Source of the DNA: Acidobacteriota bacterium
Lineage (GTDB): Bacteria > Acidobacteriota > Vicinamibacteria > Vicinamibacterales > UBA823
DNA length: 64,000 nt
Reading direction: 5' to 3'
Assembly: GCA_002730525.1 (NCBI GenBank)
Contig: PCAK01000008.1
Coordinates: 62,001-126,000 of the forward strand
Position numbers and translations under genes: made by a program. Of this stretch, positions 15,749-30,381 are shown one piece after another (position 1 is the stretch's first letter; each line of letters starts with the position of its first letter). The notes under the pieces were generated by a model, which had not been told where the DNA came from, did no database searches, and saw nothing but the letters and a program-made list of their open reading frames with translations.

Positions 15749-17956
15749 TCAGGGGGTCGTCGTGGTTGCCGTGTTGTTCATCGCATCGGTGGCGCGAAGG
15801 ATGATCTGCGCGGGCTGGGCGCGCGACGCCGTGATGGCGTAGCGCTCGGCGCGCGAGTCCGCGATGCCGTCGAGCGGATAGACCGACTGCCACCGGCTGC
15901 CGTCCAGCGAAAACTCCACACGTTCGATCATCGACTGCGCGTCCTGGACTGTGAAGGTCACGCCGTCGGCTCCGACAGGCTCCGTGTCGACCGCGATCCG
16001 CGGCGGCGTGTTATCGATATCGAATACCCGACTGGCGCGACTGCCCGTGAGCGCCGTCTGGGGCGAGTTGGACGGTGAGTCGGAGGCCTCGATCCGAACG
16101 AGGTAGCTCCCGTCGGGCACTGAGGCCGTATCCCAGACGAAGATCGGCTCGACGAGACCATCAATCAGGGGCGTCCAGTCTGGGCTGCCTTCGGTGCGAT
16201 ACAGCACGGCGTAGGTGAGGCGCGCGTCGTCGACGTCGTTGGCCGACCAGGCAAAGCTCTGCAGCCCCTTGCGATACGCGCGACGCCCGAGCGCCGGCTG
16301 GCCCGACGGGGCGGTCGCCGCGGCTTCCAGCCGCGTAGTCGGCGCGCCGTCGACAGCGAGGGGATCGAAGCCGGCGAAGTCGGTCTCGGAGCCAGAAAAG
16401 CTCTTCTGAAAGACGGTGCCCGCCGGGTGGACCGTGATCGACGCGATCACCGGGCGGAGATTGCGGGGCAGGTACGCCGCAGTCACGGACGTCAACGTTG
16501 GCGAGCGTTCGCCGAGCGTGAAGACCGCGCGCCACTGCAGGTAGCGAGCCTTTGGGCTCGCAATCGGCATGCCGGTGTTGGCGTCATACAGGTCGGACCA
16601 GGCACTCCACGTCTCGTCGGGCGTCTCGGTGTTCCCGGAGCGCGTGGAGAACTCGATGCCGCTGCCCGCCGGTTCGGTGGAGCGCCAGCGGAGCGTGCCC
16701 CAACTCGCGACCGTGGTGGCATCGCGCACATCGGAAAGGTAGGTACCTCGCGGGGCAATGGCGTCAGAGAGCACAAACAGCTTCGCCGGATTCGCCGTGG
16801 CGAAGTGCAAGCGGCCGCTCGACCCGTAAGCCATCGTCGTGACCTGGCCGGCGGCGACACGAGTCAGGAGAGTTGCCGTCGCGAGGTCGCCGGTGAGCCT
16901 GTAGATCCGACCATCCGGCCCGGTACCGACGAGGATGCCACGGCCGTCGTCCGAGCTGACGACGTAGGGCGCGTCGGTCGAGGACTCCCAGATCGAATCC
17001 CAGACACCGTCCGGTCGCACCCGCAGGACGGCGCCCGCGGAAGCGGCGGACGCGCCGTTGCCGGTTGAAGCGCCGAGCGGCGGCGCGACCTGCACGTCGG
17101 TGACCGCTACGGTGACCTGGGTCGCGACGGTGGCGGTTGGAGTTTGAGTCGTGACCGTGGGCGGCGAAGAGGTGCCGTTGCCGCCGTCGTGAATGGCCGC
17201 GACGTAGATCGTGTCATCGTCGCGGACGTGCAAGCTGCGCAGTTCGCTGTAATCGGAGTCGAGGATGATGAAGCCCTTGCCGTCGGCGTCGACGCGGAAG
17301 AGCCGGCCGGGGGAATCGGTGCTTGCGAGCAATTGTGCGTCGGAGTCGAAGGCGAGCGATAGCACGTTGGTCGCATTCGTCTCGTAGAACGGCGCGGCGG
17401 TCCCGTCGGGGGCAACTCGGTAGATCGTGCCGCGTGTGCCGGTTGCGACGTACAGCGCGTCGTCCGGACCGACCAAGAGCGCCCAGATGTACGACTCCTC
17501 GGGTTCGAACAGCGTCGTGGCCTCGCCGTCGGGCTCGACGGCGTAGACCTTGCCATCGGGGCTGGTGCCGACGTAGAGGCCGCCACCGGGCCGCCGCGCC
17601 ACGGCGTGCACCTCGGTCTCGACCGCGTCGAAGAAGAGCCGGGACGCGCCGTCAGCCGCCACATAGTAGACGCGGCCCTCGTCGCCGGTGGCCAGCCAGA
17701 AGCCGCCGCGCTCGTCGGGAACAGCGCTCCAGATGAACGGCGCAGTCGACTCGTGCAGCAGATCGGCGCTGGGGGCCAGAGCCAGACGGCCCGTCTCGTC
17801 GACCGACAGATGCTCGAATTCACCGCGCAGCAACTCGGCCTGCGTCGACACGTGCCAGAAGGTCGGGGATGCGGCGTGGAGCAGCGACACCGTCGCGGCG
17901 AGGAGCAGCGCCGAGCAGACGCGCACGGCGCGTGATGACGTCGCGGGCACTTTCAT
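15749..17956 (-). CDS. Secreted beta-propeller protein of unknown function
   Basis: 735 residues with a signal peptide (about 1-28). Residues 60-420 form a propeller of at least six blades, seen as repeated cores such as GLYVGTSPDGKVYAVEPDGE, YVATGTRGTIYRVAPDGT and ILVGTGPDGRIYRLTGD. A Thr/Val-rich linker (VTTQTPTATVATQVTVAVTD) interrupts it. The C-terminal 300 residues are beta-sandwich-like, with a FDIDNTPPRI linker. No catalytic motif is seen. Its ATG overlaps the stop of the S55 peptidase (ATGA), so the two are made together and probably act together outside the inner membrane. Confidence 0.75.
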   Translation of the reverse strand: MKVPATSSRAVRVCSALLLAATVSLLHAASPTFWHVSTQAELLRGEFEHLSVDETGRLALAPSADLLHESTAPFIWSAVPDERGGFWLATGDEGRVYYVAADGASRLFFDAVETEVHAVARRPGGGLYVGTSPDGKVYAVEPDGEATTLFEPEESYIWALLVGPDDALYVATGTRGTIYRVAPDGTAAPFYETNATNVLSLAFDSDAQLLASTDSPGRLFRVDADGKGFIILDSDYSELRSLHVRDDDTIYVAAIHDGGNGTSSPPTVTTQTPTATVATQVTVAVTDVQVAPPLGASTGNGASAASAGAVLRVRPDGVWDSIWESSTDAPYVVSSDDGRGILVGTGPDGRIYRLTGDLATATLLTRVAAGQVTTMAYGSSGRLHFATANPAKLFVLSDAIAPRGTYLSDVRDATTVASWGTLRWRSTEPAGSGIEFSTRSGNTETPDETWSAWSDLYDANTGMPIASPKARYLQWRAVFTLGERSPTLTSVTAAYLPRNLRPVIASITVHPAGTVFQKSFSGSETDFAGFDPLAVDGAPTTRLEAAATAPSGQPALGRRAYRKGLQSFAWSANDVDDARLTYAVLYRTEGSPDWTPLIDGLVEPIFVWDTASVPDGSYLVRIEASDSPSNSPQTALTGSRASRVFDIDNTPPRIAVDTEPVGADGVTFTVQDAQSMIERVEFSLDGSRWQSVYPLDGIADSRAERYAITASRAQPAQIILRATDAMNNTATTTTP

Positions 17957-19785
17957 CGGGCGTCCAGATTGAGAGTCAGGACGCGCGAGCCGGAGATGGC
18001 CTCGCTCGTGCCCAGTTCCCAGTCGGCGAGCGTGGTGCGACGGAGTGGTGTGACCGTGCCCCGACTTCGGTCACTCTGATAGACGGCCAACGCCGACGGG
18101 GGCAGGGCGGTCAATGGTTCGCCGGCGACCACGGCGCCCGAATCGGCGGCCAGCAGGCGCACATAGAGCCGGTTGTTGCGACGGCCCTCGTTGAGTATCC
18201 GGATCAGCTGATTCAGATTGCGCGGCTGCACGCGCCCTTGCGTCTCCTGCCGTTCCAGTTGCGCCAGTTCGGTGCCGCCCGCCACGAACAGTGACACGGT
18301 CGAGGGCGCATTGGCGGGGATGCGGATCGGCAGGGTGTGCACCTCCTCGGCGCCACGGTGTGATCGCGTCGCGATCTTGAGGGTGGCCTCGCGACCCGGC
18401 CGCACCCTCCGCTCATCGAGCCAGACGCGCTCGATCTGCGCGCGCTGGTCGTCCTCCGAGGCGGTGATCTCGAGACGCAGGCCAGCGAGTGCAATCGGGG
18501 CGAAGCCGTTCTGAACGAGGAACGTGATCGGCGTCAGCACCGACGTGGCCGCCGCCAGCGACGGGCCGTTCCCGGAGAAGACGTCGTCGAAGGCGAGGGG
18601 TGCGTGGTTCTGGAACGTGGCGGTGCCCGCTACCGCGAGCGTCGCCGCGCCGGCGCCGCGCTCGTAGGCCCGCAGCGTATTGAGCACCGTGACGAAGGTG
18701 AGCAACGGCGTCAACACCTGGTCGTCGACGATATTGAACTGCAGTTCACGTACGGCGGCGTTGCCGGCGCTGGGCCGCAGGGTCACCGTCACCGGAATCC
18801 GTCTCGGCGCGGGGCCGAGGGTCCCCGCAATCGCCGTCAGCCGATCCTGCTCGAACGTGCCGATCGCCTCGCCCACGGTCGCAATCTTGGTCGACGACAG
18901 CAGGCTTGGCAGCAGGGCCTGGATGTGGGCGCGGTTCATGACGAACTGCGTCGGGCCGAGATTCTGAAATGGGTGGCCGAAGGCATACACCCGGTCGTTC
19001 TCGACGAGCGTGACGGTGCCGGTGCCCGCGAGTGAGAGGTCGCCGTCAATCAGCGAGACGCTGACCGCGTCGCCGGCTTGAAGCGGTTCGGCGGCCACCG
19101 GCGCCGAGCCGGCCTGGCCGCCACCGAGCACGGGCACGAGCCCGGTCCCGTCGAGGGCGGACGTCAACAGGTCGGCCACCTCGCGATCGAACCCGCTCAG
19201 GCTCAACGGCGTGGCGATCGGGCGAAGCATCGTCGCGACGCTCTGTGCTTCGCGGAGCGGCGGGCCGATCCCGGCAACATCCCCTGTGCTTCGCGCGAAG
19301 GCCGCCGTCGGACGCATGGACGCGCGAAACAGTGCGATCAGCCGGTCAGGTGAGAGGGGAACCTCGACTCGCGCCCGCACGGCAGCAGGCCGCACGCCGG
19401 GCACGTCGACCGCATCGAACATCTCCTCTATCGGGGTGATGCCGGCCAGCGGTTCGGTCGTGAACGAACCCATCGCGTAGGCGACGGCACCGACGAGTCG
19501 ACCTTCAACGTACACCGGGCTCCCGCTCATCCCCGCGATGACACCCGTTTCGGCAAGCGGGCCGCCGTCCAGGCGCGCGAGGATGAGGTTGCGCTTCGGG
19601 CCGTTGATGTTGTGGAGGATGCCGATGATCTCGACGTCGAACTCCGCGCGCGTCGTGCCCTCGAACACCGTCACGCCGATGCCGCGCATGCCCGGACGCA
19701 CGTCGGCCAACGGGAGCACGTCGGCCGCGGCGGCGGGAGCCACGGCACCCGCGAGCATCAGACCGGCGACGAACAGGTTCTTCAT
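17953..19785 (-). CDS. SpoIVB-like S55 family serine peptidase, secreted
   Basis: 610 residues from ATG 19785. The signal peptide (1-21) is followed by an S55 (SpoIVB) domain: DVRPGMRGIGVTVFEG near 28-42 and the catalytic-serine motif GMSGSPVYV at 85-93, then GITPIEEMFD. In Bacillus, SpoIVB cleaves SpoIVFA to signal across the forespore membranes; no sporulation genes are near, so another signalling or processing role is likely. The C-terminal ~250 residues are of unknown type. It heads a two-gene operon with the propeller protein. An upstream start at 19869 would overlap the promoter and is rejected. Confidence 0.82.
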   Translation of the reverse strand: MKNLFVAGLMLAGAVAPAAAADVLPLADVRPGMRGIGVTVFEGTTRAEFDVEIIGILHNINGPKRNLILARLDGGPLAETGVIAGMSGSPVYVEGRLVGAVAYAMGSFTTEPLAGITPIEEMFDAVDVPGVRPAAVRARVEVPLSPDRLIALFRASMRPTAAFARSTGDVAGIGPPLREAQSVATMLRPIATPLSLSGFDREVADLLTSALDGTGLVPVLGGGQAGSAPVAAEPLQAGDAVSVSLIDGDLSLAGTGTVTLVENDRVYAFGHPFQNLGPTQFVMNRAHIQALLPSLLSSTKIATVGEAIGTFEQDRLTAIAGTLGPAPRRIPVTVTLRPSAGNAAVRELQFNIVDDQVLTPLLTFVTVLNTLRAYERGAGAATLAVAGTATFQNHAPLAFDDVFSGNGPSLAAATSVLTPITFLVQNGFAPIALAGLRLEITASEDDQRAQIERVWLDERRVRPGREATLKIATRSHRGAEEVHTLPIRIPANAPSTVSLFVAGGTELAQLERQETQGRVQPRNLNQLIRILNEGRRNNRLYVRLLAADSGAVVAGEPLTALPPSALAVYQSDRSRGTVTPLRRTTLADWELGTSEAISGSRVLTLNLDAR

Positions 19786-19824
19786 CGGGAAAATAGGGGC
19801 GCGGTTGGCCAGGAACCGAGATCC

Positions 19825-19854
19825 CTTATAGCGCTGGAAATAATTGACAGTCAA
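19825..19854 (-). promoter_or_regulatory. Sigma70-type promoter for the S55 peptidase operon
   Basis: Minus strand TTGACT (19854-19849), 18-nt spacer, TATAAG (19830-19825), about 40 nt before the ATG at 19785. It is divergent from the aroDE-trp promoter 60 nt away. Confidence 0.55.
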
Positions 19855-19914
19855 GGAGAAAACGACCACCGCGAGGCCATCCTTGCGCCGGATCCGGTCG
19901 TGGGGTGGCGAAAA

Positions 19915-19943
19915 TTGACACCCGCGGGAGGCCCTGGTATCGT
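19915..19943 (+). promoter_or_regulatory. Sigma70-type promoter for the aromatic supra-operon
   Basis: TTGACA (perfect -35, 19915-19920), 17-nt spacer, TATCGT (19938-19943). Transcription should begin near 19950 and run through about 240 nt of leader before the intrinsic terminator. The gap 19786-20216 (430 nt) holds only the two divergent promoters, the leader peptide and the attenuator. Confidence 0.6.
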
Positions 19944-19986
19944 CACAGATTGCACCGCGGGAGAGCTTGGCGGTGTGGACATTGAG

Positions 19987-20118
19987 ATGACTTTCGCAGC
20001 GTGCGACCGGACGGTGGCGACCGACGGCCCGAAGGGCCGCGTGCGGACTGCTCTGTCCAACTGGTGGTGGTTTTTCTACTTTACGAATCTGTCTGAGGAG
20101 GCAGCCGTGCGGGCCTGA
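19987..20118 (+). CDS. Aromatic amino acid leader peptide (Trp3-Phe2-Tyr-Phe)
   Basis: 43-codon frame ending at TGA 20116-20118. Its centre is SNWWWFFYFTN: three Trp codons (20062-20070) then TTT TTC TAC TTT (20071-20082), seven consecutive aromatic codons in a genome where Trp is rare. This is the layout of an attenuation leader peptide, sensing all three aromatic amino acids instead of one. The start is uncertain. ATG 19987 is 37 nt after the predicted transcription start but has a poor ribosome site. GTG 20041 (25 codons) has AAGGG upstream, but that sits in a CGGCCC-GAA-GGGCCG hairpin. It lies upstream of aroDE-trpE-trpD-trpC-trpF-trpB-trpA-aroF-tyrA, whose products make these amino acids. 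Confidence 0.75.
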   Translation: MTFAACDRTVATDGPKGRVRTALSNWWWFFYFTNLSEEAAVRA

Positions 20119-20162
20119 AACGCCACACAGTTCACGAGCGAGAAGTTCTCGAGCCTCTTCAG
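20041..20162 (+). promoter_or_regulatory. Attenuator: competing leader and antiterminator helices
   Basis: Hand pairing gives two exclusive structures. Helix 1:2 joins 20041-20054 to 20097-20110 (13 pairs, bulges at A47 and G100) with the aromatic codons in its loop. Helix 2:3 (antiterminator) joins CUGAGGAGGC at 20093-20102 to GCCUCUUCAG at 20153-20162, ten consecutive pairs with one G-U. Helix 2:3 shares bases with the terminator 5' arm. A ribosome stalled on any of the seven aromatic codons would sit in the 1:2 loop and free segment 2 for the antiterminator. A ribosome that reaches the TGA at 20116 would cover segment 2 and allow termination. Confidence 0.7.
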
Positions 20163-20195
20163 CCTGTTCCGGTTGAGGGGGCTTTTCTTGTTGTT
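20152..20195 (+). terminator. Intrinsic terminator of the aromatic leader
   Basis: 13 consecutive base pairs between 20152-20164 (AGCCUCUUCAGCC) and 20171-20183 (GGUUGAGGGGGCU), including three G-U pairs, with a 6-nt loop UGUUCC and a following U-rich run (20183-20193). Its 5' arm overlaps antiterminator segment 3. It ends about 25 nt before the aroDE start. Confidence 0.75.
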
Positions 20196-20216
20196 GGTGA
20201 TGGGGTGAGACGAGAG

Positions 20217-21677
20217 ATGCAACGGCCGCAGTTGTGTGTGACGGTCACCGCGGGCAGTACCGCGGAGCTTCGACGGCGTCGTGACGCCACGGTCGACGCG
20301 GATCTGATCGAGCTGCGCCTGGACGGCGTTCGAGACCTCGACGTGAAGGGCGCGATCCAGGGCCGGCAGACGCCGGTCATCGTGACCTGTCGGGGTGTGC
20401 GGGACGGCGGTCGCTTCGACGGCAGCGAGAACGAACGGCGGCGGCTGATCGACGAGGCCCTGACGTGTGGCGCGGAGTTCGTGGACCTGGAGTGGACCGG
20501 CAGCCCGGATCCGAGGATCGCCGCGGAGGCGTCGCGCGTCGTCCTGTCGTCCCATCTCTCCACTTTCGACGCCTCGGAGCTGGAGCCGTGCTACCGGGCG
20601 ATGCGCGCGACGGGAGCGGCGGTCGTGAAGATCGCCGCTCCCGTCGACCACTTGATGGATCTCGTGCCCATGGCGGTGTTGGGCCGCCGGGCCGCCGTGA
20701 ACGACGAGCGGGCGGTCCTGCTTGGCATGGGCCCCGCCGGCGCGCCGTCACGCCTGCTGGCCAGCCGATTCGGCGCCTGCTGGAGCTACGCGGGCTCGGT
20801 GGCGCCAGGGCAGTTCTCGGCAGCGCGAATGGTTCGGGAGTTTCGATATCGCGACATCGGCGTCGACTCGGAGCTGTACGGTGTCGTCGGCAACCCCGTG
20901 GGGCATTCCGTGTCGCCCGCGATGCACAACGCGGGGTTCGCGGCGGCCGGTCGTGATGCGGTCTACCTGCCGCTGACGGCGGCGGATGCCGACGATTTCT
21001 TCGGCTTTGCGGAGGCGTTCGGGCTGACCGGCGCCAGCGTCACGGCGCCGTTCAAGGGCGCGGCCTTCGAGCGTGTCGCGACGACCGACGACGTCGGACG
21101 GCGGATCGGCGCGGTCAACACCGTGCGCCGGTGCGGCGAGGACTGGCAGGGGATGAACAGTGACGTGCCGGGGTTCCTCGAGCCCCTGACGGACCGTCTG
21201 GCCTGCAAGGGCCTGCGCGCGACGGTCCTGGGAGCGGGCGGGGCGGCACGGGCGGCCGCGCTCGCGCTGGTCGAGGGCGGCGCCTCGGTTGACGTGTGCG
21301 CACGGGTCAAAGCCCGCGCCGAGGAGACGGCCGGGGTCTGTGGCGCGCAGGTTGGGACGTTTCCCCCGGTCCCTGGCTCGTGGGACCTGCTGGTGAATGC
21401 CACGCCCGTCGGGACGTCACCGAAGAGCGACGTCTCGCCGATGCCGTCGTCGGCGCTGGATGGGGGATTCGTGTACGACCTGGTCTACAACCCGAATCCG
21501 ACCCGGTTGATGCGCGAGGCCGCGGCGCAGGGCTGCGCCACTCTCGGGGGGCTGGAGATGCTCGTGGCGCAGGCGGAGCGACAGTTCGAATGGTGGACGG
21601 GAGCGCGTCCAGCTGACTCGGTCTTTGCCACGGCGGCTCGGGCGTGGCTCACGGACACGAGGGAGCGTGGGGCATGA
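20217..21677 (+). CDS. aroDE: Bifunctional 3-dehydroquinate dehydratase (type I)/shikimate dehydrogenase
   Basis: 486 residues. Domain one (about 1-215) is a type I dehydroquinase barrel: ELRLDGV, the His of SSHLST and the Schiff-base Lys of VVKIAAP. Domain two (about 220-486) is a shikimate dehydrogenase: GNPVGHSVSPAMHNAGF, SVTAPFK (catalytic Lys), NSDVPGF and the NADP site GAGGAARAA. It catalyses two consecutive shikimate steps, as the plant fusion does. ATG 20217 is preferred; GTG 20205 is in frame but lacks a ribosome site. First structural gene after the attenuator, overlapping trpE by an ATGA. Confidence 0.93.
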   Translation: MQRPQLCVTVTAGSTAELRRRRDATVDADLIELRLDGVRDLDVKGAIQGRQTPVIVTCRGVRDGGRFDGSENERRRLIDEALTCGAEFVDLEWTGSPDPRIAAEASRVVLSSHLSTFDASELEPCYRAMRATGAAVVKIAAPVDHLMDLVPMAVLGRRAAVNDERAVLLGMGPAGAPSRLLASRFGACWSYAGSVAPGQFSAARMVREFRYRDIGVDSELYGVVGNPVGHSVSPAMHNAGFAAAGRDAVYLPLTAADADDFFGFAEAFGLTGASVTAPFKGAAFERVATTDDVGRRIGAVNTVRRCGEDWQGMNSDVPGFLEPLTDRLACKGLRATVLGAGGAARAAALALVEGGASVDVCARVKARAEETAGVCGAQVGTFPPVPGSWDLLVNATPVGTSPKSDVSPMPSSALDGGFVYDLVYNPNPTRLMREAAAQGCATLGGLEMLVAQAERQFEWWTGARPADSVFATAARAWLTDTRERGA

Positions 21678-23161
21678 AGCAGACCTCGTTCGAAGAGTTC
21701 ACGGCGCTTGCGACGCAGGGTACGTTCGTTCCGGTCTACAAGGAGATCATGGCCGACCTGCTGACGCCGGTCTCGGCGTTCCTGAAGGTCGCGGAACACT
21801 CCGATCACGCCTTTCTCCTGGAGAGTGTCGAGGGCGGGGAGCACGTCGCCCGCTACTCCTTCCTGGGAAAGGACCCGTTCCTCGTCCTGCGCGCCAACGG
21901 TTCACGCACGAGTGTCGAACAGGCGGGTGTCCTGACCGAGTCTGACCGGCCCTTCGTGGAGCTGCTGCGCGAGGTGATGACCGCCTATCGCTCGCCCGAG
22001 GTGCCGGGTCTGCCGCGCTTCACCGGTGGCGCCGTTGGTTATCTCGGCTACGATGCCGCACCCTGGCTGGAGCCGAAGCTCACCTCGGCCTGGGAGACGG
22101 GCCCGCACGCCGAGGCGGGCGCCGCTGACGATGCAGCCTTCATGCTGTTCGATACTGTCCTGGCGTTCGACCACGTCAAGCACCGAATTCTGATTATCGC
22201 CAACGCGCGTGTGGAATCTGGCGAGCCGTTGGAGTCGCTCTATCAGTTCGCGTGCACCAAGATCCAGTTCCTGGAACGTGAACTCGAGGGTGCGCTCTCG
22301 CGGCCGGAGCCGGTGGCGGCCGAGCCGAGCGAGGTGACCTCGAATACGTCGCAAGCGGCCTTCGAGAAGGCCGTGGCGCGGGCGCAGTCGCACATCGAGG
22401 AAGGGGACGTGTTTCAGGTCGTCGTCTCGCAGCGATTTCAGACCGAACTAAAGGCCGACCCGTTCTCCGTCTACCGGGCGCTCCGCTACGTCAATCCGTC
22501 GCCGTACATGTATTTCATCCGCCTGGGGGGCACGGCGATCGCCGGATCGTCGCCGGAGATGCTGGTACGCGTGGAGGGTGGGCACGTGGAGACGCACCCG
22601 ATCGCCGGCACTCGCCCGCGGGGCGCGACCGAAGCAGAAGATGACCGGTTGGCAGACGAGCTGAAGGGCGACGAGAAGGAGCGCGCCGAGCATGTCATGC
22701 TCGTGGATCTGGGCCGGAACGATCTGGGGCGAGTGTGCGACTACGGAACCGTTCGGGTGCCGCAGTTCATGCGGCTCGAGCGGTACTCGCACGTGATGCA
22801 TCTGGTCTCCAAGGTCGAAGGACGCCTCGGGGAGGATGTCGACCGGCTCGACGCGCTCGCGGCGTGCTTTCCGGCGGGCACGGTCTCGGGCGCCCCGAAA
22901 GTGCGCGCCATGGAGCTGATTGCGGAGTTGGAGCCGACGCGACGCGGCATCTATGCCGGAGCGATCGGCTATTTCGACTTCGCGGGCAATCTCGACTGTT
23001 GCATAGGCATCAGGACCGTCACGGTGACGGACGGCGTCGCCTCGGTGCAGGCGGGGGCGGGCATCGTGGCCGACTCGCGACCCACGGTCGAGTACGAGGA
23101 GACGCGCGCGAAGGCCCAGGCGATGCTGCGGGCGATCGAGATGGCGCAGGGCGCGGTGTAG
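21674..23161 (+). CDS. trpE: Anthranilate synthase component I
   Basis: 495 residues from ATG 21674, which overlaps the aroDE stop. The N-terminal half has the regulatory Trp-binding [18 protein letters not shown] element. The C-terminal chorismate-binding half has [39 protein letters not shown](V)[11 protein letters not shown] and [17 protein letters not shown]. Makes anthranilate from chorismate and ammonia or glutamine. It needs a glutamine amidotransferase partner, whose gene follows but is broken. Confidence 0.97.
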
Positions 23162-23163
23162 TG

Positions 23164-23716
23164 ATGGTGCTGGTGTTGGACAACTACGGCTCGTTCAGCT
23201 TTAACCTCGTGCAGTACCTGGGGCAACTCGGCGCGTGTCCGCTGGTGTGCCGCAACGATCAGGTGACGGTCGATGAAGCCCAGTCGCGTGGTGATCTCGC
23301 CGAGGCCCGGCCGTCCAGAACAGGCGGGGATTTCTGTCGAACTGATCCGCCGGTTGGCGCCCCGGATGCCCATGCTCGGCGTCTGCTTCGGCCATCAGGC
23401 CATTGGCGTGGCCTTCGGAGGACGCGTGCGGCGTCACAGGGTGATCCGACACGGGAAGTGCTCGCCAGTGGCTCACGACGGACGCGGCGTCTTCGACGGC
23501 CTGGAGCAAGGCTTCACCGCGGCGCGGTATCACTCACTGGTCGTGTCGGAGGAGGAGTGGCCGGCCGACCTCGAGGTCGGGGCGCGCGCCACGGACGACG
23601 GCGCCGTCATGGGGACAGAGGTATCAACGCTGCCGGCGCACGGCGTACAGTTTCATCCGGAGTCGATTCTCACTGACGTCGGCTGCCGACTGATGCAGAC
23701 GTTCCTGGAGATCTGA
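23164..23716 (+). pseudogene. trpG: Anthranilate synthase component II, frameshifted
   Basis: Glutamine amidotransferase that feeds ammonia to TrpE. Codons from ATG 23164 read [17 protein letters not shown] and continue to VTVDEA (about 23280). The rest is in the +1 frame from about 23279 ([11 protein letters not shown]) to the stop at 23716. The second part keeps the catalytic Cys (GVCFGHQ), His and Glu (GVQFHPES). Besides the frame break, 3-5 residues are missing at the junction. Two usually invariant positions differ: DNYDSF reads DNYGSF, and SPGPG reads SPRPG. A deletion between two gaagcc-like repeats would explain the break; an assembly error is the other option. trpE, trpD and the rest are intact. 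Confidence 0.75.
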
Positions 23717-24747
23717 TGTTTGCCGCGCTGTTGGAGAAGCTGTCGAAGCACTACGACCTCTCTGCCGACGAGGCCGCCGGCGCGATGGAAGAGATCATGG
23801 CGGGCCGGGCGGCGCCCGCGCAGATCGGTGGTTTCCTGATCGGCCTGGCGATGAAGGGCGAACGACCTGACGAGATCGTCGGTTTGGCCAGGACGATGCG
23901 AGCGAACGCCGTGCAGCTCTCCACGCCGCTCGCCAACGTATTCGACACCTGCGGAACCGGCGGCGATCGATCGCACACGTTCAACGTCTCGTCGGTCGCG
24001 GCGCTCGTCCTGGCCGGGTGCGGAGTGACGGTGGCCAAGCACGGAAACCGTTCGGTCTCGAGCAAGTGCGGCAGCGCCGACCTGTTCGAGGTCCTGGGCG
24101 TCAACGTCGCGGCCTCACCCGCACAGGTGGAGCGCTGCCTCGACGGCGCCGGGATCGGATTCTTCTTCGCGCCTACCTTTCATCCGTCGATGAAGCATGC
24201 CGGACCGGCGCGGAAGGACCTCGGCGTGCGGACTGCGTTCAACTTGCTTGGCCCGTTGACGAATCCGGCCAAGGCGACTCGGCAACTGGTTGGCGTCCCG
24301 AGGCCGGAGTTCACCGAGTTGGTGGCCAAGGCCCTGGCGCTCCTGGGTTCGGAGCGTGCCTGGGTCGTGCACGGCGCCGACGGTCTCGATGAGATCTCGA
24401 CGACCGGCCACACGAAAGTGTCCGAGTGTTGGCGGGGAGTGGTGAACACCTTCTACCTGCATCCCTCGGAGCACGGCGTGCCGCGTGCGGAGATGCAGGC
24501 GCTACAGGGTGGGACGGCGGAGGAGAACGCCGCGATCGCGCGCACCGTCCTCTCGGGAGTGGAAGGCCCGCCGCGTGACGTCGTCACCCTCAACGCGGGC
24601 GCGGCGCTGCTCATCGCGGGTCGGGTCGAGACGTTGCGTGAGGGTGTGGCGATGGCGTCGCGCTCGCTCGACGATGGCACAGCGAGCCGGAAACTCGAAC
24701 TGATGGTCGAGTTCTCGAACGAAGCCGTCAAGGAGCCGGCCTCGTGA
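23716..24747 (+). CDS. trpD: Anthranilate phosphoribosyltransferase
   Basis: 343 residues. Joins anthranilate to PRPP. PRPP loop GTGGDRSHTFNVSS (about 77-90), KHGNRSVSSKCGSAD (about 106-120) and the anthranilate-site segment HPSMKHAGPARKDLGVRT are intact. Length is normal. ATG overlaps the trpG stop by one base (TGATG), so its translation would normally be coupled to trpG; the trpG frameshift leaves the second-half frame still ending here. Confidence 0.97.
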   Translation: MFAALLEKLSKHYDLSADEAAGAMEEIMAGRAAPAQIGGFLIGLAMKGERPDEIVGLARTMRANAVQLSTPLANVFDTCGTGGDRSHTFNVSSVAALVLAGCGVTVAKHGNRSVSSKCGSADLFEVLGVNVAASPAQVERCLDGAGIGFFFAPTFHPSMKHAGPARKDLGVRTAFNLLGPLTNPAKATRQLVGVPRPEFTELVAKALALLGSERAWVVHGADGLDEISTTGHTKVSECWRGVVNTFYLHPSEHGVPRAEMQALQGGTAEENAAIARTVLSGVEGPPRDVVTLNAGAALLIAGRVETLREGVAMASRSLDDGTASRKLELMVEFSNEAVKEPAS

Positions 24748-25595
24748 GCCGCACGGCTGGCCCGGACGGGGTCGCCACCTCCGGGACGGTGGGTCCGAAG
24801 CTGGGCGCGGGCGTGGACCTGCTGAGGGCAATCGTGGCCGCAACGCGGGCGTCGGTCGACGCCCGGCGACGAACCACCTCCGACGGCGAGATCGAGCGGG
24901 CCGCCGCCGCTCGGATGCCCAAGGCGGCGGAGTTCATGGCGCGCCTGAACAGGCCGGACCAGGTGAACGTCATCGCGGAGTGTAAGCGTCGTTCGCCTTC
25001 CAGAGGCGTGCTGTGCCGCGACTACGACCCGGCCCGCCTGGCGACAGCGTACGCCCGGGGCGGCGCGGCGGCGGTTTCCGTGCTGACCGAGCCGACGTTC
25101 TTCGATGGCGCGCTCGAGCATCTCCGCGAGGTGCGCGCGACGGTGGAACTGCCGATCCTAGGCAAGGACTTCATCGTGACGGAGTATCAGCTCGTCGAGG
25201 CGCGAGCGGCCGGCGCGGACGCCGCGCTGCTCATCGTGGGTGCGCTCGACGATGCGATGCTCCGGCGGTTGCTGGCCGCGGCGGACGGCCTCGACCTGGC
25301 CGCCCTGGTCGAGGTCCACGATGCGGCGGAACTGGACCGCGCGCTGGATGCGGGTGCCCGACTCGTCGGCGTCAACAACCGAAATCTTCGAACCCTGGAG
25401 GTCGCGGTCGATACGAGCGTCCAACTCATCGAGCGGATCCCGGATGGGGTGTGTGCGGTGGCCGAAAGCGGTCTCCGGTCGTCTGGCGATCTCGCCATGT
25501 TGCGGTCGTTCGGATACCGGGCGTTCCTGGTCGGGGAAGCCCTGGCGGCTGACGCCGACCCGGCACGGGCGCTGGAGGCGCTCCGTGATGTCTAG
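24744..25595 (+). CDS. trpC: Indole-3-glycerol-phosphate synthase
   Basis: 283-residue TIM barrel. VIAECKRRSPSRG (catalytic Lys), LTEPTFFDGALEHL, ILGKDFIVTEYQ, VGVNNRNLRTLEV and AESGL are present in the family order. The N-terminus is about 20 residues longer than usual. GTG 24744 overlaps the trpD stop by four bases; an internal start is possible. Confidence 0.96.
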   Translation: MSRTAGPDGVATSGTVGPKLGAGVDLLRAIVAATRASVDARRRTTSDGEIERAAAARMPKAAEFMARLNRPDQVNVIAECKRRSPSRGVLCRDYDPARLATAYARGGAAAVSVLTEPTFFDGALEHLREVRATVELPILGKDFIVTEYQLVEARAAGADAALLIVGALDDAMLRRLLAAADGLDLAALVEVHDAAELDRALDAGARLVGVNNRNLRTLEVAVDTSVQLIERIPDGVCAVAESGLRSSGDLAMLRSFGYRAFLVGEALAADADPARALEALRDV

Positions 25596-26250
25596 GGCCC
25601 CGTTCGTGAAGGTCTGCGGGATCACCACGTCGAACGACGCGGAGTGCGCCGCAGGGCTCGGAGCCGATGCCCTGGGGTTTGTGTTCTGGCCGAAGAGCCC
25701 TCGATACATCCCGCCGGCCGACGCCAGACGGATCATCGAACGGATTGGGCCGTTGACGACGGCCGTGGGCGTCTTCGTGAACGCGAGCGCGGGCGAAATC
25801 CATCAGGCGGTCCTTGACGCGCGAATTGACGTCGTGCAGCTGCACGGTGACGAGCCACGCGAGTTGCTGTCTGCACTGACGCGGCCAGTCATCCGGACGG
25901 TCGGTGTGGAGGCGGCCGGGCCGGTCGTGTCGATCGAGTCGCCGCCGCCAGACGTGACGGTGTTGCTGGATGTCCACGACCCGGGCCGGCGAGGGGGGAC
26001 CGGCCGACAGGTCGACTGGGACGTCGCGGCACGATGGGCGCTCCGGCGACGGGTGATCCTGTCGGGAGGGCTGCGGCCCGGGAACGTGCGGGCCGCAATC
26101 CGCCAGGTGGCACCCTACGGCATCGACGTTTCGTCGGGTGTCGAGGCTTCGCCTGGAACGAAGGACACCGTGAAGCTGCGCGAGTTCTTCGTGGAGATCG
26201 AGGCCGAGCGGAGATTCGCGGTAATGGAAGTCGAGGAGCACCATGACTGA
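25588..26250 (+). CDS. trpF: Phosphoribosylanthranilate isomerase
   Basis: 220-residue TIM barrel. VKVCGITT with the catalytic Cys (C10), [20 protein letters not shown], the catalytic Asp region LLDVHDPG and the phosphate-binding [10 protein letters not shown] and DVSSGVE. The ATG at 25588 lies inside the end of trpC (8-nt overlap) and the gene overlaps trpB by 8 nt. The open frame upstream is only trpC in another frame. Confidence 0.95.
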
Positions 26251-27484
26251 GTCGGTGATCTCGGCCCCGGTGTTCGGTCAGCGCGACCCGGACGAACGGG
26301 GCTACTTCGGCGCCTACGGCGGGCGCTACGTACCGGAAACGCTGGTGGCGCCCATCGGGGCGCTTGAGATCGCGTACCTGGAAGCCAGGCGCGATCCGAC
26401 GTTTGGGCGCGACCTGCATCGCCTCCTGACCACCTACGTCGGCCGACCCACACCACTGGCGCCGGCCGAGCGGCTGAGCGCGGCGGTGGGCGGCGCCCAG
26501 ATCCTGCTGAAGCGTGAAGACCTGGCGCACACGGGCGCGCACAAGATCAACAACGCGCTCGGGCAGGCGTTGCTGGCCGCTCGGATGGGGAAGCGACGGA
26601 TCGTGGCCGAGACCGGCGCGGGCCAGCACGGCGTCGCCACGGCCACGGCCTGCGCGCTGCTCGGACTCGACTGTGACGTCTACATGGGCGCGGACGACAT
26701 GGCGCGACAGGCGCTCAACGTCGTGAGGATGCAGTTATTGGGCGCCTCGGTTCGACGCGTAGAGGGCGGCAGCCGTACGCTGAAGGACGCCGTCAACGAG
26801 GCGATGCGTGACTGGGTCACGAATGTGACGGACACCTACTATCTTCTGGGGTCGGTGCTCGGGCCCCATCCTTATCCCCTGATGGTCCGCGAATTCCAGT
26901 CCGTGATCGGCCGCGAGGCCAGAGCACAGGCCATCGAGGCGGGGGGCGTGCCAGACGTGGTCGTGGCGTGTGTCGGCGGCGGGAGTAACGCGCTCGGGAT
27001 ATTCGATGGCTTCGTGGACGACGCGGCTGTTCGGCTCGTGGGCGTGGAGGCCGGCGGCGAGGCGATCGTGCCAGGCCGACACGCCGCCCGGTTCGCGGGC
27101 GGGACGATGGGCGTGCTGCAAGGGACACGCAGTTACGTGCTGCAGGATGCGCACGGCAACATCGAACCGACACATTCGGTGTCGGCGGGCCTCGACTACG
27201 CGGCTATCGGACCGGAGCACGCCTGGATGCGCGACCTCGGCCGTGCCGAGTACACCTGGGTCACCGACGATCAGGCGCTCCACGCGTTTCACGAACTCTG
27301 CCGTCGCGAGGGCATCATGCCGGCGCTCGAGTCGGCGCATGCGGTGGCTCACGCCATGACCCTGGCCGGGACGCTCGAGGGATCGGCCCGCATTCTGGTC
27401 AACCTCTCGGGACGCGGCGACAAGGACGTGGACAGCGTCGCCGCGCGGCTGGACGATTCGTCGGCAGCCGGCGGCGGGGCGTAG
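26243..27484 (+). CDS. trpB: Tryptophan synthase beta chain
   Basis: 413 residues. PLP enzyme that condenses indole and serine. GGRYVPETL near the start, [20 protein letters not shown] with the PLP Lys, [10 protein letters not shown] and the phosphate loop GGGSNALG are intact. TrpB1 type, forming the alpha2-beta2 complex with TrpA encoded 11 nt downstream. Confidence 0.98.
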
Positions 27485-27495
27485 AAGGGCGGGGG

Positions 27496-28374
27496 ATGTC
27501 GAGGCTCGACGAGGCGTTCGGACAGATCCGGAGCGAGAAGCGGACCGGCCTGGTGACCTACGTGACGGCGGGCGACCCCGACCTCGTGCGCACCAGGTCG
27601 ATCCTCCGCACGCTGGATGAGGCCGGAGCGGACGTGCTCGAGGTCGGGGTGCCCTTTTCCGACCCGCTGGCCGACGGCCCGGTCATCCAGCGGGCGTCGG
27701 AGCGGGCGCGGGCTGGCGGGACGACGCTCGCCGCGACGCTGGAGATGATCGGTGGCGCGCGAGGGGAGCTGCGCGCGCCGGTCGTGGTCTTCAGCTATGC
27801 GAACCCGATTCTGGCGATGGGCAGCCAGACGTTCGCGGCGCGGGCCAGCGACGCTGGCGTCGATGGCGTTCTGGCCTTGGACTTGCCGATCGAAGAGGCT
27901 GGTGACTTCAGGGCGACGATGCTCGACGCGGGACTCGACCCGATCTTCCTGTTGAGCCCGACGACGAGCGACGCTCGGATCAAGCGGGCCGCTGAGCTAG
28001 GGCGAGGCTTTCTGTACGGGATCTCGAGGCTAGGTGTGACCGGGGCGCGGACGGAACTGGCCGACGGAGCGGAGCGGATGGCGGCGCGCATCCGGGCTCA
28101 GACCCAGATGCCGCTCGCGCTGGGGTTCGGCGTCTCGACGGCCGAGCACGTGGCCGCGATCGGTCGTTGGGCCGATGCCGCGGTCGTGGGCAGTGCCCTC
28201 GTGTCGGTCATCGAGAAGGCAGCTGGAGACGCGACGCTGGAGTCGGCATTGGCCGCCTACGTCCAGGAGTTGACGTCGGGGCATGGATCCGCCCGGTACG
28301 CGGAGGGACGTGTGGACGAGACCCGTCGGCTGGAACGCCATCACGGCGTACGGGCGACCGACGGCAGGGAGTGA
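27496..28374 (+). CDS. trpA: Tryptophan synthase alpha chain
   Basis: 292 residues. Splits indole-3-glycerol phosphate. The catalytic Glu in LEVGVPFSDPLADGPVIQ and the Asp in the YANPI-containing region are intact, as are the phosphate-binding GISRLGVTG and GFGVSTAEH. The last ~25 residues (after YVQEL) are a polar tail not seen in most TrpA. Ends 12 nt before the DAHP synthase gene. Confidence 0.97.
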   Translation: MSRLDEAFGQIRSEKRTGLVTYVTAGDPDLVRTRSILRTLDEAGADVLEVGVPFSDPLADGPVIQRASERARAGGTTLAATLEMIGGARGELRAPVVVFSYANPILAMGSQTFAARASDAGVDGVLALDLPIEEAGDFRATMLDAGLDPIFLLSPTTSDARIKRAAELGRGFLYGISRLGVTGARTELADGAERMAARIRAQTQMPLALGFGVSTAEHVAAIGRWADAAVVGSALVSVIEKAAGDATLESALAAYVQELTSGHGSARYAEGRVDETRRLERHHGVRATDGRE

Positions 28375-28386
28375 AGGAGTGAGGCA

Positions 28387-29436
28387 ATGATGATCGTCAT
28401 GCAGGAACAGGCGTCGGAGAGCCAGATCGAAAAGGTGATCGAGCAGCTGTCCGAGCAGGGCTTCGACGTCCACCGATCGACCGGCGCGCTGCGTACTGTC
28501 CTAGGCGCTGTCGGGGGCAACCGGACGTTCGACGCGAGGCTCGTGGAGGTCATGGACGGGGTATCGGGGGTCCATCGGATCACCGAGCCGTACAAGCTGG
28601 CGAGCCGAACGTTCAAGAGCGAGCGGACCGTGATCCAGATCGACAACCTGCGCATCGGCGGAGACGAGGTCGTGGTGATGGCTGGGCCGTGCTCGGCTGA
28701 AACGGAAGAGCAGGTCGAGGCGACCGCCTCCGCCGTGAGGCGCGCCGGGGCCAAGGTGCTGCGCGGGGGAGCGTTCAAACCTCGCAGCTCGCCGTACAGC
28801 TTCCAGGGGCTCGGAGAGCAGGGGCTGCAGATGCTGCGCGGCGCGGCCGACCGGCACGACATGAAGCTGGTGTCGGAAGTCATGGACGTCAGCCAGATCG
28901 CGTTGGTCGGAAAATACTCCGACATCTTGCAGGTCGGCGCGCGAAATATGCAGAACTACACGCTCCTACGCGAGCTTGGCCATACCGCGAAACCCGTGCT
29001 CTTGAAGCGGGGCATCTCGGCGACCATCGAGGAGTGGCTGCTGTCGGCGGAGTACATCCTGGCGGGTGGAAATGCAGATGTGATGCTGTGTGAACGGGGG
29101 ATCCGGACGTTCGAGAGCTACACGCGCAATACGCTCGACATCTCGGCGATCCCGGTTATCCACAAGCTGAGCCATCTGCCGATCGTCTCCGACCCGAGTC
29201 ACGGCACCGGGCGCAGGGACAAGGTGGCTCCGATGGCGCGCGCCTCGGTCGCCGCCGGCGCGGACGCCCTGATTATCGAGGTGCACAACGATCCCGAGCG
29301 CGCGAAGAGCGACGGAGCGCAGTCGCTTTTCCCTGAGCAGTTCGAGCGTTTGATGACCGAACTGCGGATCATCGCTCCGGCGATCGGGCGGAGCATCTGC
29401 CTGGAGCCGGTCGGTGGCAAGGCCTGGGTCAGATGA
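28387..29436 (+). CDS. aroF: 3-deoxy-7-phosphoheptulonate (DAHP) synthase
   Basis: 349 residues. First shikimate-pathway reaction, from PEP and erythrose 4-phosphate. The N-terminal ferredoxin-like domain (about 1-75, [20 protein letters not shown]) is of the kind found in type I-beta enzymes. The catalytic barrel has [43 protein letters not shown] and the metal-site [11 protein letters not shown]. Good ribosome site (AAGGAG) before the ATG. Placement at the end of the trp block puts the pathway entry under the same attenuator. Confidence 0.96.
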
Positions 29437-29454: not shown

Positions 29455-30381
29455 ATGACCGATCGTAAACCGCTCCCCGTCATCTCTGCGGGTGCGATCG
29501 GCGCCGCGCCGGTCTTCGAGAAGATCGGGATCGTCGGTCTGGGCCTCATCGGGGGCTCCATCGCCATGGCCTCGCGCGCGGCGTGGCCGAACGCGCTGAT
29601 CATCGGCGTCGATACCGGGGAGCTGCTGGAAGAGGCGATGGTGCTGCACGCCGTCGACGTCGGCGCGGATGACGTCGTCGTCCTCTCGGAGGCCGACCTC
29701 GTCATCTTGGCTGCTCCCGTTAGGCAGAACCTCGAGATGCTGGACGAGGTGGCGGCTCACGTCGGCGGCGAGGCGGTCGTGACGGATGTCGGCAGCACGA
29801 AGCGGGCGATTGTCGAGGCCGCCCGCGGATTGCCGCCGCGGCTGCGGTTCGTGGGAGGCCATCCGCTGGCTGGCGCGCCACGGCAAGGGATACGCCACGC
29901 TCGGGCCGATCTGTTTACGGGACGACCGTGGCTGCTGACGCCTGACGGTGATGCACATGGTGAGGCACTGCTGCGGCTGAGGGCTTTCATCGAGGCGGTG
30001 GGCGCCGTGCCGCGAACGATGGATGCCCGGGAGCACGATCGAGTGCTGGCATCGCTGGGCCACCTCCCGCAGCTCGCCGCGACCGCGCTGATGCACATTC
30101 TAGGCACGAGGCTGGGCCGCGACGGCCTGAGCCTGGCGGGCCGAGGTGTCGTCGACACCACACGGTTGGCATCGAGCGACGCGGCGGCCTGGCGGGATGT
30201 CTGTGCGACGAACGCTGACGAGATTCGGCCCGCGCTCGACGCTCTCATTGAAGCCCTGGAGACGCTGCGGGATGACCTTGGAACAGGTTCGAGGTTGGAC
30301 GAACTCTTCGAGTCGGCCAACGACTGGCGGGAGACCCTGACGAGTGCGGTGGACGGCGCCGCGGCGAAGCGAGAGACCTGA
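29455..30381 (+). CDS. tyrA: Prephenate dehydrogenase
   Basis: 308 residues. Oxidative decarboxylation of prephenate toward tyrosine. N-terminal NAD site GIVGLGLIGGS (about 25-35), DVGSTK, and the substrate-binding GGHPLAGAPRQGIRHA. The C-terminal helical domain is of normal length; no ACT domain is attached. Follows aroF by 18 nt. No pheA or aroH is in the window. Confidence 0.93.
   Translation: MTDRKPLPVISAGAIGAAPVFEKIGIVGLGLIGGSIAMASRAAWPNALIIGVDTGELLEEAMVLHAVDVGADDVVVLSEADLVILAAPVRQNLEMLDEVAAHVGGEAVVTDVGSTKRAIVEAARGLPPRLRFVGGHPLAGAPRQGIRHARADLFTGRPWLLTPDGDAHGEALLRLRAFIEAVGAVPRTMDAREHDRVLASLGHLPQLAATALMHILGTRLGRDGLSLAGRGVVDTTRLASSDAAAWRDVCATNADEIRPALDALIEALETLRDDLGTGSRLDELFESANDWRETLTSAVDGAAAKRET

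Follow-up and report, generated by a model that had tools for sequence, protein, structure and literature searches.

The window (the whole stretch of 64,000 nucleotides of acidobacterial DNA analyzed here) carries on its plus strand an aromatic amino acid supraoperon. It opens with aroDE, encoding a fused type I 3-dehydroquinase and shikimate dehydrogenase (20217-21677; Pfam and NCBIfam; a GTG at 20205 is also a possible start), followed by trpE (21674-23161, start approximate; Pfam, and TIGR00564 above its cut-off), trpG (23164-23716), trpD (23716-24747; Pfam), trpC (24744-25595; Pfam), trpF (25588-26250; a reading frame with a KVCGIT motif, in the conserved gene order), trpB (26243-27484; Pfam PALP and gene order), trpA (27496-28374; Pfam), aroF, encoding a DAHP synthase (28387-29436; Pfam, with TIGR01361 and NF006421 above cut-off), and tyrA, encoding a prephenate dehydrogenase (29455-30381; Pfam). 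The enzymes of this operon make Trp and Tyr, and Phe draws on the same chorismate supply, with pheA located elsewhere. The gene aroDE is present in 146 of 162 genomes of the order, which we take to be Vicinamibacterales, and in the roughly 100 loci that we fetched from relatives for comparison of gene order and leaders, the order aroDE-trpE-G-D-C-F-B-A is found in nearly all that are sufficiently long, mostly together with aroF and tyrA. Upstream, on the minus strand, a divergently oriented gene (17953-19869) encodes an S55 peptidase domain resembling SpoIVB; it adjoins the operon in most relatives as well. Compared with a genome of the same genus, trpG in this assembly has a 14-nt gap near 23278 that breaks its reading frame, and conserved positions of the protein are changed (GPG to RPG, CLG to CFG). 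No other stand-alone trpG-type glutamine amidotransferase was evident in the genome, the three other matches falling within long reading frames that resemble carA, guaA, and pyrG, and the frame break represents either true decay or an assembly error.

A sigma-70-type promoter (TTGACA, a 17-nt spacer, and TATCGT, with a TG preceding the -10 element) precedes the operon on the plus strand at 19915-19943. It matches the consensus at 10 of 12 positions and is the sole promoter-like site on either strand between 19800 and 30500. Sites matching at least 9 of 12 positions are found upstream of the aromatic codons in 75 of 109 leaders, versus 4 of 109 shuffled controls. The promoter is followed by a leader reading frame of 43 codons (19987-20118, plus strand, ATG to TGA), separate from the upstream gene, whose peptide ends in SNWWWFFYFTNLSEEAAVRA before the stop codon. 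No strong Shine-Dalgarno sequence was found ahead of the ATG at 19987, translation could alternatively begin at an in-frame GTG (19975), which follows a GGGAG, and the assignment of start codon and ribosome binding site is uncertain. Within this frame, the codons TGG TGG TGG TTT TTC TAC TTT (WWWFFYF, 20062-20082, plus strand), aligned with the corresponding runs of other leaders, cluster codons for the amino acids that the operon serves. This is the only aromatic run of more than four codons in the six frames of the 64 kb window, and the longest found in 927 kb of sequence from relatives has six codons. Both the promoter and the seven consecutive aromatic codons had been pointed out in the first-pass annotation, and both claims are borne out.

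An intrinsic terminator hairpin (20151-20184, plus strand, dG -22.8, followed by TTTTCTTG) lies ahead of aroDE, the first structural gene. It comprises 14 pairs when G-U pairs are counted, rather than the 13 initially assigned, and since the upstream gene is divergent, it is not the terminator of that gene. Its 5' arm can pair alternatively: segment 2 (20093-20102, plus strand, CUGAGGAGGC), the 5' arm of an antiterminator, forms 10 pairs with segment 3 (GCCUCUUCAG, 20153-20162, plus strand), which is common to the antiterminator and the terminator, exactly as first described. A third helix, which according to the first-pass annotation could hold the antiterminator segment, is indeed predicted when the full-length leader RNA is folded. 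In addition, a small protector hairpin (20089-20104, plus strand, 6 pairs) includes part of segment 2 and takes up much of it when no ribosome is present, with partner probabilities near 1. The z-score of the whole-region fold is only -1.8, so that the evidence for this RNA rests in its conservation and not in its stability. No leader family of Rfam was matched at gathering score, nor at a relaxed threshold. The best sub-threshold match, to RF02883 (BcKCsr2), spans 20083-20189 with 20.4 bits against a cut-off of 40; BcKCsr2 is a small RNA of Burkholderia and may in its turn derive from an attenuator.

To examine the helices, we aligned 103 leaders of this acidobacterial order. Standard pairs make up 92.1% of the cells of the antiterminator, compared to at most 54% in a slid control, and 95.1% of the terminator cells are paired. 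Cells in which both partners changed number 38 in the antiterminator and 70 in the terminator, versus 13.2 and 20.1 in shuffled alignments, a control that, unlike the slid one, ignores relatedness. Because segment 3 is common to both helices, changes in it are accompanied by matching changes in each of its two partners (e.g., columns 136, 138, and 139). The two mutually exclusive helices anticipated in the first-pass annotation are thus both kept with compensatory changes, but the third helix is not preserved among the 103 leaders, and segment 2 is not sequestered in all relatives. The stretch that begins with the first aromatic codon and runs to the terminator measures 101 to 132 nt in all leaders compared. 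Relative to the genome of the same genus, identity amounts to 97.7% over 20062-20190, to 88.0% in aroDE, and to approximately 55% in the flanks.

The consequences of ribosome position were modeled on the assumption that the ribosome covers 12 nt downstream of the first nucleotide of the codon in its A site. For each position, the RNA beyond the ribosome was folded up to the 3' boundary of segment 3. The antiterminator of the window keeps a probability of no less than 0.98 as long as the A site lies between 20050 and 20080, which is the last aromatic codon; it falls to 0.64 at the next codon, then to 0.02, and is zero from there to the stop codon, and it is 0.00 without a ribosome. All seven codons of WWWFFYF therefore lie within the permissive stall zone of this model, and with the assumed footprint, a ribosome on the control codons frees the antiterminator, which is blocked when the ribosome has reached the stop codon. 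Averaged over the 103 leaders, the probability is 0.92 on the aromatic codons, drops to 0.46, 0.16, and 0.04 over the three codons that follow, and is zero at the stop codon; without a ribosome it is 0.40, so that we do not regard the protecting helix as conserved. Once the full terminator is transcribed, it wins at equilibrium for every ribosome position in the window; switching must therefore be under kinetic control, like that of the attenuators already described.

Computation shows the elements of this leader, how they are conserved and covary, which codons are enriched (see below), and the geometry; stalling, termination, readthrough, and the responses to the individual amino acids are inferred from these results. 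RNA polymerase would start near 19950, and a ribosome would translate the leader behind it. When charged tRNA-Trp, tRNA-Tyr, or tRNA-Phe is scarce, the ribosome would stall within WWWFFYF, its leading edge stopping just short of segment 2 (20093), so that segments 2 and 3 could pair, the terminator would not form, and the operon would be transcribed. When all three charged tRNAs are plentiful, the ribosome would cover segment 2 and reach the stop codon, segment 3 would pair with segment 4, and transcription would stop ahead of aroDE. If the leader were not translated, the hairpin on segment 2 would favor termination too. Strong support for attenuation comes from the conservation of the leader, from compensatory changes in its helices, from the constant spacing, and from folding with the ribosome placed at each codon; on these sequence and folding grounds we consider it highly probable that ribosome-mediated attenuation in cis by mixed aromatic codons controls aroDE-trpEGDCFBA-aroF-tyrA.

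Which amino acids are sensed can be approached by comparing, in the 103 leaders, the ten codons preceding segment 2 with the ten codons further upstream. Trp codons account for 28.0% of the control region versus 0.4% of the upstream leader codons, and Tyr codons for 12.0% versus 1.6% (approximately seven-fold), whereas Phe codons show no order-wide enrichment (6.2% versus 7.0%). All 103 leaders have Trp in the control region, 95 have Tyr, and 50 have Phe, and the Tyr codons may stand before, between, or after the Trp codons. We conclude that the control codons of the order are those for Trp and Tyr, not Phe. The family of the window differs in this respect, with 17 Phe codons out of 42 versus 31 out of 658 elsewhere (P = 6.6e-11, a value that overstates the case because the six genomes of the family are related); one of its members has a thinner run, CWRFNSFT. 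Both Tyr synonyms are used in the leaders (TAT 75, TAC 49; 13 to 42 in the operon's own genes), as are both Phe synonyms (TTT 42, TTC 22; 16 to 82 in the operon's own genes), TAT and TTT being relatively commoner in the leaders.

These counts bear on the alternative that survives best, namely an ordinary attenuator sensing only Trp, to whose control the Tyr and Phe codons would be incidental. The universal presence of Trp codons would fit it, as would the leaders with WWWC or WWWY that precede a trpB paralogue in other acidobacterial classes. Yet the Tyr codons are strongly enriched at varied positions and with both synonyms, Phe is enriched in the family of the window, the operon also makes chorismate and Tyr, and every one of the seven codons falls within the permissive stall zone, so that we regard sensing of Trp alone as unlikely. 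With mixed aromatic codons as the preferred reading, a response to Trp is very likely, a response to Tyr is likely, and so is a response to Phe that would be specific to the family of the window, where Phe by itself probably contributes. The initial proposal that the leader senses Trp, Phe, and Tyr together is therefore retained with Trp universal and Tyr nearly so, and with Phe limited to one family.

It is also conceivable that the freed leader RNA or its peptide works in trans, besides or instead of attenuation in cis. The attenuated transcript would be a small RNA encoding a short aromatic peptide, and there is a precedent in Sinorhizobium meliloti, where the Trp leader products rnTrpL/peTrpL are reported to act in trans (PMC7298713). 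Across the order, the N-terminal portion of the leader peptide is nonetheless not conserved, and the parts that are conserved, control codons and helices, are explained by attenuation in cis, which makes an action in trans quite improbable. Regulation by something other than a ribosome (a T-box, TRAP, or a riboswitch), to which the aromatic run would be irrelevant, would by itself suit a terminator with an alternative helix, but we give it very little credence given the lack of an Rfam family at gathering score, the missing TRAP gene, and the near-constant distance between the aromatic run and segment 2 in 103 genomes. Genes for TRAP (PF02081, which a control search did find in Bacillus subtilis) and for TrpR are both absent from the genome, and control by either protein was rejected. 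Nor is there a second copy of the attenuator in this genome, the best matches having E values of 0.4 or weaker.

Leaders at other operons were compared as well. In a sister order of the same class, aroDE is followed at two loci by hisZ and hisG (named by eye from their translations), and the leader, MTIVRRWRATVHHHRYHA, carries HHHRYH and has its own terminator. Phe-codon leaders with terminators lie ahead of pheA, encoding chorismate mutase-prephenate dehydratase, at seven loci (an example from the order of the window, where some sister families carry such attenuators, is MRLRAFPFVFTFAGFTAAREAV). Leaders rich in Val, Leu, and Ile precede pheA at six further loci, and at three of these (L207, L217, and L226) the gene after pheA resembles ilvD or ilvB, where Phe synthesis thus seems to be under a branched-chain attenuator as well. 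In other acidobacterial classes, Trp leaders (WWWY, WWWC) stand ahead of a trpB paralogue at four loci, one of which (L178) has a DAHP synthase downstream of it. One more leader, ending in VSFGAFGAYYFTYYKRTG and rich in Phe and Tyr, precedes a chorismate mutase gene near pheA, and two others, rich in Ile and Val (ending in RIVIGIRVICIAMEANGTA), precede a small reading frame that possibly encodes an ACT-domain protein. Among the matches of a phylum-wide model outside the order (E values of 1e-6 to 1e-3), two lie ahead of aroDE-hisZ-hisG, four ahead of a trpB paralogue, and two have Ile/Val-rich leaders. Many of the matches that were inspected lack an aromatic leader and look like plain terminators.

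Control codons appear to follow operon content across lineages, which supports the attenuation mechanism and suggests that Phe sensing shifted to the supraoperon in the family of the window. None of the eight pheA genes examined in this family has an attenuator, and no Phe leader was found at the pheA of the window's own genome. The lack of a pheA attenuator is associated with Phe codons in the supraoperon leader (P 0.01), an association confounded by descent; as a general predictor of Phe codons it fails within f13 or f3. We tentatively suggest, as a possibility that falls somewhat short of being probable, that Phe sensing moved in this family from pheA into the Trp/Tyr leader while sister lineages kept the Phe leader of pheA, codons being reassigned on one conserved RNA scaffold.

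One acidobacterial order thus appears to merge Trp and Tyr, and one of its families also Phe, into a single decision over the shared trunk of aromatic synthesis and two branches leading from it. With about a hundred natural variants whose codons follow operon content, the rule that control codons track products becomes directly testable. Leader-peptide attenuators are known chiefly for one amino acid, or for Thr/Ile and branched-chain sets. The attenuators of enterobacterial pheA and pheST have Phe codons only and serve a single branch; the leader described here likewise places Phe codons over an aromatic pathway gene, but leads an operon without pheA. The aromatic supraoperon of Bacillus subtilis, with trp, aro, and tyrA genes, is attenuated as well, Trp being sensed via the TRAP protein, for which this genome has no gene. 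As in the multi-amino-acid attenuators of thrABC (Thr, Ile), ilvGMEDA (Ile, Val, Leu), and ilvBN, several kinds of control codons in one leader match the end products of the pathway, although the codons here are aromatic rather than branched-chain or Thr/Ile and the sequence is unrelated. These operons are listed in PMC1183508. With trpL of Escherichia coli and the Trp leaders of Actinobacteria (PMC1262725), the leader shares consecutive Trp codons, mutually exclusive helices, and trp genes downstream; it departs from trpL in its Tyr and Phe control codons, in having aroDE, aroF, and tyrA in the operon, in its phylum, and in not matching the Rfam Trp_leader. A survey of 2010 left the predicted acidobacterial attenuators almost without assigned function (PMC2965389), and searches of open-licence papers yielded no mixed aromatic or acidobacterial leader peptide. 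In Desulfovibrio vulgaris, Enterococcus faecalis, and Streptococcus pneumoniae, large clusters of aromatic genes have likewise been predicted to be supraoperons under attenuation (PMC1173090); their gene content differs, and the attenuation section of that paper gives neither control codons nor leader peptides. As far as that section goes, the first-pass view that this is not a described class must be narrowed to the mixed aromatic codons and the phylum, since the logic had been predicted before. What is new is the codon set, the target operon, and the phylum, and the mechanism is classical ribosome-mediated attenuation.
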